DNA from: Bacillus sp. (in: firmicutes)
Lineage (GTDB): Bacteria; Bacillota; Bacilli; Bacillales; JACDOC01
Direction of reading: 5' to 3'
Length of the DNA: 64,000 nucleotides
NCBI GenBank assembly: GCA_017656295.1
Contig: JACDOC010000008.1
Location: 1-64,000, forward strand
This document shows, one piece after another, positions 31,658 to 33,961 of the stretch. The first letter of the stretch is position 1. Every line of letters begins with the position of its first letter. The notes beneath the pieces were generated by a model. It was not told the origin of the DNA. It saw only the letters and a list, made by a program, of their open reading frames with translations, and searched no databases. Both the position numbers and the translations under genes were made by a program.

Positions 31658-32506
31658 ATGAAGGTAGGCTATTTAGGTCCGAATGCAAGCTTCACGCATT
31701 TAGCTGTAAAGCGAGCATTTACAAATGTTCAATTGAATCCATATATGACGATTCCAGAATGTATCGAAGCCGCTTCCGCAAAAGAGGTAGATATAGCGGT
31801 TGTTCCGTTAGAGAATGCACTTGAGGGATCAGTGAATTTAACTATCGATTATTTAGTACAAGAGACAGACTTAAAAATTATCGCAGAATTGATTTTGCCA
31901 ATACGCCAACATTTAATGATGCATGCTCAGTATGCAGCTGAAGAGGAGATACGTCCCGAAAAAGTTTTATCGCATAGTCATGCCATTGCCCAATGTCACA
32001 AATTTTTACACCAACAACTAAAAGGTGTTCCTGTCGAGTATACTTCTTCAACAAGCGCAGCTGCTAAATGGATTAGCGAGCATCCCGAGAAAAAGTACGC
32101 AGCGATTGGAAATGAACTAGCAGCAAAAGAGTACGACTTAACCATTCTCAAAAAAGATATTCACGATTACAAACATAATCATACACGTTTTATCGTCGTC
32201 TCTCGAGAAAATTTCCGCTGTATTTCCCAGTCTACGAAACAAGTGAAAACGACGGTGATGGTGATGCTACCGTCCGATTATGCAGGAGCGTTACATCAAG
32301 TTCTTTCTGCTTTTTCGTGGCGGAAGTTGAACTTAACTAAAATCGAATCCCGTCCGATGAAAACGGGATTAGGCAATTATTATTTTATTATCGATATTGA
32401 AAAAGAATGGGATGATGTATTGTTACCGGGAGCGGTAGCGGAAATGGAAGCGCTTGGTTGTCAAGTAAAGGTGTTAGGGAGCTACCCTTCCTATTCGTTT
32501 ACATAA
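31658..32506 (+). CDS. pheA: Prephenate dehydratase
   Basis: 282 residues; converts prephenate to phenylpyruvate in phenylalanine synthesis. Periplasmic-binding-like catalytic lobes (MKVGYLGPNASFTHLAV at the start, the TRF motif in HNHTRFIVVS near 173) are followed by a C-terminal ACT domain (about 193-275) with the ESRPMK sequence that binds phenylalanine for feedback inhibition. AAAGGGGGAG precedes the ATG. The stop codon begins the palindrome it once shared with niaR. Confidence 0.97.
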   Translation: MKVGYLGPNASFTHLAVKRAFTNVQLNPYMTIPECIEAASAKEVDIAVVPLENALEGSVNLTIDYLVQETDLKIIAELILPIRQHLMMHAQYAAEEEIRPEKVLSHSHAIAQCHKFLHQQLKGVPVEYTSSTSAAAKWISEHPEKKYAAIGNELAAKEYDLTILKKDIHDYKHNHTRFIVVSRENFRCISQSTKQVKTTVMVMLPSDYAGALHQVLSAFSWRKLNLTKIESRPMKTGLGNYYFIIDIEKEWDDVLLPGAVAEMEALGCQVKVLGSYPSYSFT

Positions 32507-32605
32507 TAAAACAACCCACTCTTTTGATAAAGGGTTCAGTTTAGAGGTGCAAACAAGTAAAAAACAAGCATTAACGCATTGGAATTCACAAGTGAACTCC
32601 AATGT

Positions 32606-32636
32606 AAATCGTCTATTTTATATGGACGATTTTTTA
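32606..32636 (+). terminator. Terminator-like hairpin at left end of cassette
   Basis: AAATCGTC (32606-32613) pairs with GACGATTT (32625-32632) around an 11-base loop, followed by TTT. It may stop transcription coming from pheA. Confidence 0.5.
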
Positions 32637-32665
32637 GGTTAATTGGATTTTTATGTTAATATTAA

Positions 32666-32693
32666 TTGTGAATTTATTTTTAGAAAATACAAT
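32666..32693 (+). promoter_or_regulatory. Promoter of the cassette Nudix gene
   Basis: TTGTGA (32666-32671), 16-bp spacer, TACAAT (32688-32693): a plausible sigma-A promoter 25 bp before the start codon. Confidence 0.55.
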
Positions 32694-32717
32694 CAATTAA
32701 ATGAGGGGATGAAAGAA

Positions 32718-33221
32718 ATGGCTATGTCAGACTACTATAAAAAATTAAGAGATAAACTTGGTGCAGATTTGATTTTTATGCCTTGTGTAGCAGGAATAGT
32801 TCGGAATGATTCGGGGGAAATATTATTTCAGAACAAAGGTAACGGAGAAAAGTGGAGTCTGCCTGCTGGGGCGATAGAACTTGGAGAAGCTCCTGCTGAA
32901 GCCGTGGTTCGGGAAGTTTGGGAAGAGACAGGCTTATATGTTACTCCAAAGAAACTATTAGGAGTATTCGGAGGAAAAGACTTTCGTTATCAATATCCAA
33001 ACGGTCATAAAGTTGAATATAATGTGTTTCTGTTTGAATGTGAAGTTCAAAGTGGAGAACTAAACCCGATAGACGATGAAACTTTTGAATTAAGATATTT
33101 CAACTTAAATGAAATGCCTGAACTTGCATTACCATATCCTAAATCAGTTTTCGAGTCGCCTTCTGAGGAAGTATTATTCCAGTGGAATGATGAATGGTTA
33201 AATAAACTAAAAAAGTCCTAA
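32718..33221 (+). CDS. Nudix hydrolase (cassette passenger)
   Basis: 167 residues. The 23-residue Nudix box is complete from Gly51 to Leu73, with REVWEETGL containing the metal-binding glutamates, so it should hydrolyse a nucleoside diphosphate linked to another group; substrate unknown. The start ATG has GAGGGG 9 bases upstream; two other in-frame ATGs are poorly spaced. No signal peptide. Unlike its neighbours it is absent from this place in the B. subtilis order and lies between inverted repeats with its own promoter and terminator, so it was acquired. Some Nudix enzymes detoxify nucleotides or modified antibiotics; that is only a possibility here. Confidence 0.9.
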   Translation: MAMSDYYKKLRDKLGADLIFMPCVAGIVRNDSGEILFQNKGNGEKWSLPAGAIELGEAPAEAVVREVWEETGLYVTPKKLLGVFGGKDFRYQYPNGHKVEYNVFLFECEVQSGELNPIDDETFELRYFNLNEMPELALPYPKSVFESPSEEVLFQWNDEWLNKLKKS

Positions 33222-33258
33222 TTAGTTAATCTTTTTTTTGAAATTTCCAATACAAGTC

Positions 33259-33291
33259 AAAAGGAGCTTAGAATTAAGCTCCTTTTTTGTG
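33259..33291 (+). terminator. Terminator of the cassette Nudix gene
   Basis: AAAAGGAGCTTA (33259-33270), loop GAAT, TAAGCTCCTTTT (33275-33286), then TT: a perfect 12-bp stem. Confidence 0.85.
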
Positions 33292-33409
33292 TGATTTATT
33301 ACGTGATTTATGGTGTGGCATAGATGCGAAATGGATTGATATTTAGATTGATAATTATCATTTTGCACCTCAAAAGTGAACCCGTTACTCTTTTGAGTGG
33401 GTTGTTTTA

Positions 33410-33961
33410 TTACTCTTGTTCTTCTACAATCATTAGAAATCCAGCTTTCTCAAGCGCCTTTTCCGCTTCCAATAAATATTGTTCGTTCGGTGCGGAAATA
33501 GTGTGCAAATGTACTCCATCAGTTAATTCTGAAAGAAAAGAGGCATTGGTTGACCGTATTCGTTCCATAAACATTTGTACTTCTTTCCGGTTAGACACCA
33601 TCACCGAGGCGGTAAGATCACCATATACTGGATGTTCGATTTTGACATCTTTGACGGTCACCCCATGATCAACAAGTAAATTAAGCTCTTCTTCCGTTCG
33701 TTCCGGTGGATGATAACAGGCGATCGTTTTTGTTGCTTCTTTTTGTCCATTGACGGGATGTAAGTATAAATATCCTTGACTGGTAGCGATAATAGGTTGA
33801 TTTCGTGCCTTTAATAACGTAATATCGCCTACGATCACTTGGCGACTTACATTCGCTTTTTTCGCTAATTCCGCACCAGTAATGGGTTGTTGACTATTTT
33901 TTAACATATTTAGTAATAAGTTTCGACGCTCTTCGCCTAATAACTTCTTCTGTTCTTTCAT
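33410..33961 (-). CDS. niaR: NAD synthesis repressor NiaR (YrxA)
   Basis: 183 residues. An N-terminal winged-helix DNA-binding domain (about 5-60, GAELAKKANVSRQVIVGDI) precedes a C-terminal 3H domain with conserved histidines (CYHPPERT, EHPVYGDLT, DGVHLHT), the nicotinate-binding module. NiaR represses NAD biosynthesis and salvage genes when nicotinic acid is present. The second of two adjacent ATGs is better spaced from GGGGAG. It lies downstream of nifS on the same strand and next to its likely targets. Confidence 0.96.
   Translation of the reverse strand: MKEQKKLLGEERRNLLLNMLKNSQQPITGAELAKKANVSRQVIVGDITLLKARNQPIIATSQGYLYLHPVNGQKEATKTIACYHPPERTEEELNLLVDHGVTVKDVKIEHPVYGDLTASVMVSNRKEVQMFMERIRSTNASFLSELTDGVHLHTISAPNEQYLLEAEKALEKAGFLMIVEEQE

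Follow-up and report, generated by a model that had tools for sequence, protein, structure and literature searches.

The window analysed here is a 64,000-nucleotide stretch of a Bacillus sp. contig (JACDOC010000008.1, positions 1 to 64,000, forward strand). In it, the pheA gene ends at position 32506 and niaR, which lies on the minus strand and was called by its HTH_11 and 3H domains, ends at 33410. Inspection of the sequence between the two revealed an 860-bp unit (32528–33387) in which a Nudix hydrolase gene is the sole gene. The ends of the unit (32528–32553 and 33362–33387) are 26-bp inverted repeats that match at 23 of 26 positions, and they are flanked by perfect copies of a 9-bp direct repeat, CTCTTTTGA (32519–32527 and 33388–33396). 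Excising 32528–33396 in silico leaves a 40-nt site, TAATAAAACAACCCACTC-TTTT-GAGTGGGTTGTTTTATTA, in which the rejoined flanks form an exact 18-bp stem with a TTTT loop; from the positions at which pheA and niaR end, the stop codons of both genes lie in the outer ends of this stem. A preliminary description of the locus had reported the repeats and reconstructed the original site in this way, and both claims are borne out. It had also portrayed the unit as self-contained, with promoter, Nudix gene and terminator. The gene (a match to PF00293 with an E value of 6.8e-22) and the terminator are present, the latter on both strands (plus-strand 32606–32632 and minus-strand 33286–33259 in a terminator scan), but the promoter is a putative one, the unit having five promoter-like matches where shuffling predicts 3.9. 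The features of the locus are listed below, with L227 denoting a Metabacillus locus that carries a complete relative of the unit.

32504–32521, left arm of the split bidirectional terminator of pheA and niaR, beginning with the pheA stop codon
32519–32527, target-site duplication, left copy (9 bp, CTCTTTTGA)
32528–32553, plus strand, left terminal inverted repeat (TAAAGGGTTCAGTTTAGAGGTGCAAA)
32576–32604, remains of the left subterminal hairpin, recognised by comparison with L227, where a T tract, deleted in the window, follows the hairpin
32604–32605, deletion junction, from which about 2.36 kb (L227 2185–4541, the small ORF and transposase) has gone
32606–32632, plus strand, intrinsic terminator, located 3' of the transposase gene in L227 and facing pheA transcription in the window
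32718–33221, plus strand, Nudix hydrolase gene (167 aa), a passenger under purifying selection
33259–33286, terminator hairpin 3' of the Nudix gene, scored on the minus strand, the direction in which niaR is read
33362–33387, minus strand, terminal inverted repeat on the right (TAACGGGTTCACTTTTGAGGTGCAAA when read inwards), with no difference from the corresponding end of the Metabacillus element
33388–33396, target-site duplication, right copy (9 bp)
33395–33412, right arm of the interrupted terminator, containing the niaR stop codon

The closest solved structure to the window Nudix protein is PDB 3smd. Compared with three relatives outside its genus, the gene has dN/dS values of 0.08–0.12, indicating that it is under selection, and it may be kept for some benefit to the host. 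Its nearest relative (94% identical) is found on an uncultured Metabacillus contig (L038). A further copy, with 92% protein identity (L039 1951–2500), lies directly behind a degenerate left end and has no right end; this is apparently an independent, differently shortened copy. In around 20 related loci, pheA and niaR are adjacent and convergent, many with one intact hairpin in the gap, and none showed the Nudix gene between them. Since these loci are uninterrupted and lack the Nudix gene, the insertion at pheA/niaR is the derived state. An uninterrupted terminator is what the preliminary description had proposed to look for in close relatives, and its central claim, that a passenger cassette without a transposase has entered the loop of a terminator shared by pheA and niaR, is supported.

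When extended, the Metabacillus contig proved to carry a complete 3.2-kb element (L227 2108–5313) with, in order, an ORF of ~85 amino acids, a 649 amino acid transposase gene and the 94% identical Nudix gene, which is therefore a passenger of a complete element as well as of the transposase-less copy in the window. The ends of this element are TAACGGGTTCAGTTTAAAGGTGCAAA and TAACGGGTTCACTTTTGAGGTGCAAA and its target duplication is CCTTTTTCG. The right end of the window unit is identical to TAACGGGTTCACTTTTGAGGTGCAAA and the left end has three mismatches to this family end. A transposase-bearing relative, which the preliminary description had proposed to seek, is thus at hand, with the same ends and the same passenger; its remark that the ends match no nameable family is overturned, as they belong to a Tn7491-like family that includes the L227 element and the dfrG element described below. 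The window cassette aligns to the L227 element over its left 83 bp (85.5% identity) and its right ~800 bp (89.5%), and the ~2.36 kb between (L227 2185–4541), which holds both genes of the transposase operon, is missing from the window copy. The terminator at 32606–32632 is the former transposase terminator, retained by the deletion. The L227 element itself lies within a T-box leader terminator (RF00230, L227 1889–2104) upstream of what reads as a tyrS gene, and its insertion may alter tRNA-controlled tyrS expression.

Among 300 sampled genomes of the class, 13 contain the end motif. Transposase homologues 43–57% identical to that of L227 are found at six further loci (L195, L217, L218, L219, L221 and L222, the last with a degenerate gene). 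Five of these (L195, L217, L218, L221 and L222) have TAA-type ends with 9-bp duplications, whilst the duplication at L219 is 10 bp in length. The small ORF 5' of the transposase is likewise conserved and shows no consistent Pfam match. For the transposase, no curated model passes its cut-off, its profile found no match among PDB sequences and an AlphaFold prediction from three sequences reached a pLDDT of 35. The transposase family lies outside the curated models searched and carries varied single-gene cargo. Judged by eye, apparent passengers of autonomous elements include a hydrolase-like protein (L195 2173–2823), an aldo/keto-reductase-like protein (L219 1913–2935), a PadR-like regulator with a membrane protein (L218 5182–6352) and a lipoprotein (L221 2375–2995).

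The L227 transposase is ~52% identical to the 650 amino acid transposase of Tn7491, the dfrG trimethoprim-resistance transposon that, according to the source cited in the registering paper, was first seen inside Tn6198 (Bertsch 2013, cited in PMC10763498). Tn7491 has been registered with an end and a 9-bp duplication that agree with those read here (PMC10763498). Like the L227 element, it has a small ORF, homologous to that of L227, ahead of the transposase and one passenger after it; like the window copy, it has ends of 26–27 bp beginning TAA, a 9-bp duplication and insertions in terminator loops. It differs from the window copy, which has no transposase, in that its passenger is dfrG, convergent with the transposase, and its ends differ from the window right end at 7 of 26 positions. 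The dfrG element, a transposon of enterococcal, staphylococcal and listerial plasmids, is 3276 bp long with ends TAAGTAGTTCAGTTTTGGAGTACAAA. Its transposase homologue is found on more than 90 gram-positive plasmids and 89 plasmid records contain most of the element. Many of the 89 do so at 100% identity, pointing to recent spread.

Other members of the family are short and non-autonomous. Two MITE-like elements of 596 bp (L119 2435–3030 and L121 2970–3565) occupy different sites in one genome, are 98.2% identical and each have their own target duplication; no family transposase was detectable in that genome. Further copies of the same MITE were noted there (L118 and L120). The cargo of short elements L122 and L198 consists of lipoprotein-like genes, that of L198 also being present, at 31% identity, on a transposase-bearing contig (L228), and the cargo of L192 is three small ORFs. 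The same ends therefore recur with different contents, which the preliminary description had proposed to look for, and each of its three checks thus had a positive outcome. An 89-bp mini-element (L199 5160–5248) comprises little beyond the two ends; it lies in a terminator-like hairpin and its 9-bp duplication is near-perfect. Many elements in the family carry a terminator-like hairpin 60–105 bp inside the left end.

To place the window insertion, in the loop of the pheA/niaR intrinsic terminator, in the context of the family, empty sites were rebuilt for 31 distinct insertions chosen by their ends or transposase, independently of the site. Fourteen of the 31 are distinct dfrG plasmid insertions (L202–L204, L230–L244), hand-picked from the match list and hence not a random sample. 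Each site was examined on both strands for a terminator, defined by a stem of at least 7 bp with three G–C pairs, a T tract and a loop centre within 2.5 bp. This definition fits 25 of the 31 sites, whereas among 38,527 control positions within those loci it fits 0.9%. Outside the dfrG set 14 of 17 sites pass (P ~1e-26) and within it 11 of 14 (P ~1e-20), with P values that treat the sites as independent although the dfrG sites L234, L235 and L242 resemble versions of one terminator. A hairpin test that admits G–T pairs on one strand only is passed by 21 of 31. In 23 of the 31 sites (~3 expected), no more than 2 bp separate the centres of loop and duplication; they usually coincide exactly, and in most sites the offset is 0.5 bp or less. 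Six of the 31 sites fail the terminator test. At the dfrG sites L202 and L203 no hairpin is convincing, L121 adjoins a hairpin and the L122 site is an imperfect long hairpin. The loop insertion of the window copy is a family habit and no coincidence. In the open literature searched, we found no statement of terminator targeting by Tn7491; it is the targeting of terminator loops that is new here, the ends and 9-bp duplication of Tn7491 having been described already.

Two rival accounts of these observations can be weighed against this. Short inverted repeats are common and the window repeats could in principle be palindromic by chance, with an ordinary gene between them, but in other genomes exactly these ends recur together with transposase genes and duplications, and a reversed-control version of the end motif gave no match among the genomes listed (300 of the class sampled). 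The recurrence of the ends and the silence of the control argue that the window repeats are not due to chance, and we regard such an origin as wholly implausible. The site bias might instead reflect survivorship, with insertion at random and only harmless events persisting. An element that bears its own terminators should indeed do little harm in a terminator, yet harmlessness would not centre the duplication on the loop so closely, and the set contains almost no harmless intergenic sites that lack a hairpin; we consider this reading improbable.

With its family ends, its 9-bp duplication and its site in a terminator loop, and with neither transposase nor small ORF, the window unit is a non-autonomous Tn7491-like derivative. 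How it came to be so is more evenly balanced. A complete element may have inserted at pheA/niaR and then lost its transposase genes in place, to which we give an even chance: the difference from L227 is one internal deletion, cleanly bounded, whose junction shows slight homology (TTCAATG/TTCAAG), the ends and duplication being intact, although no full-length copy was seen at this site in the relatives compared, which come from the same order only. Alternatively, the transposase may have been lost elsewhere and the cassette moved into the terminator in trans, as in mobile insertion cassettes, known from the B. cereus group among others; it is to those of the B. cereus group that the preliminary description had likened the unit. 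The likeness holds insofar as a passenger lies between transposon ends without a transposase, but the transposase family is a different one, the B. cereus analogy is mechanistic only and loss in place is equally possible. That transposase-less members of the family do move is shown indirectly by the two 596-bp elements, other short members have intact duplications and the duplication in the window is perfect. Set against this, no second cassette copy was found in the window's genome or in the plasmid collection searched, no second pair of ends was found in that genome, nor was a family transposase by a search that detects it in other genomes, and an internal deletion in place would look identical. 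Arrival in trans is thus a serious contender, to which we assign somewhat less than an even chance. With no transposase in the window's genome, the cassette would be stationary unless one arrives.

Taking the evidence as a whole, we are confident in explaining the window unit as a non-autonomous Tn7491-like transposon from a family that leaves 9-bp duplications in the loops of intrinsic terminators. By inference, the 649 amino acid protein and its ~85 amino acid partner would bind the 26-bp ends and join them to a target cut with a 9-bp stagger whose centre is the loop of the terminator hairpin. The cue would be the geometry of the hairpin and not its sequence; the sites have the former in common but not the latter, which makes structure the likely signal. 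Candidate cues are an extruded cruciform, or a hairpin or paused polymerase during transcription. Terminators within the element ends may then take over from the one that is split. Because the elements bring their own terminators, the cost to neighbouring genes should be small, and in the window the presence of terminators on both strands means that the split pheA/niaR terminator can be functionally replaced. We think it reasonably probable that Tn7491-like transposases pick their targets by the geometry of intrinsic-terminator hairpins, cutting symmetrically around the loop, and that this structure-guided safe-site strategy is common to the dfrG transposon and its passenger-carrying relatives. 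This suggests how the widespread dfrG could enter many plasmids without visible damage, since every replicon has terminators and the element supplies its own, and it makes the family a direct test case for a transposase guided by the structure of DNA or RNA and not by its sequence.

Insertion into terminator hairpins has a precedent in IS1272/TnSha1 (IS1182 family), where the passenger is fabI, but there the target is not duplicated and a blunt cut deletes part of the stem (PMC4923244). The window unit differs in having a 9-bp duplication and a whole stem, implying that its terminator targeting is mechanistically unlike that of IS1272. Two other families were considered as relatives of the transposase or its source. 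Seven of nine members show a weak zinc ribbon and HTH match to IS1/IS1595 (best E 1.4e-6). IS1 makes 9-bp duplications. Membership of IS1 was nevertheless rejected, the members shown scoring 20–22 bits against a cut-off of 100, with a transposase of 649 amino acids, and a profile comparison with E. coli InsB giving no match. ISLre2 (UPF0236, PF06782), suggested as a transposase source by its 9-bp duplications, was likewise set aside, as no family ends were found in the UPF0236 loci examined (L129–L158). Distant homologues of the transposase, at 24–27% identity, occur on Pseudomonas and Acidovorax plasmids (L245 and L246).
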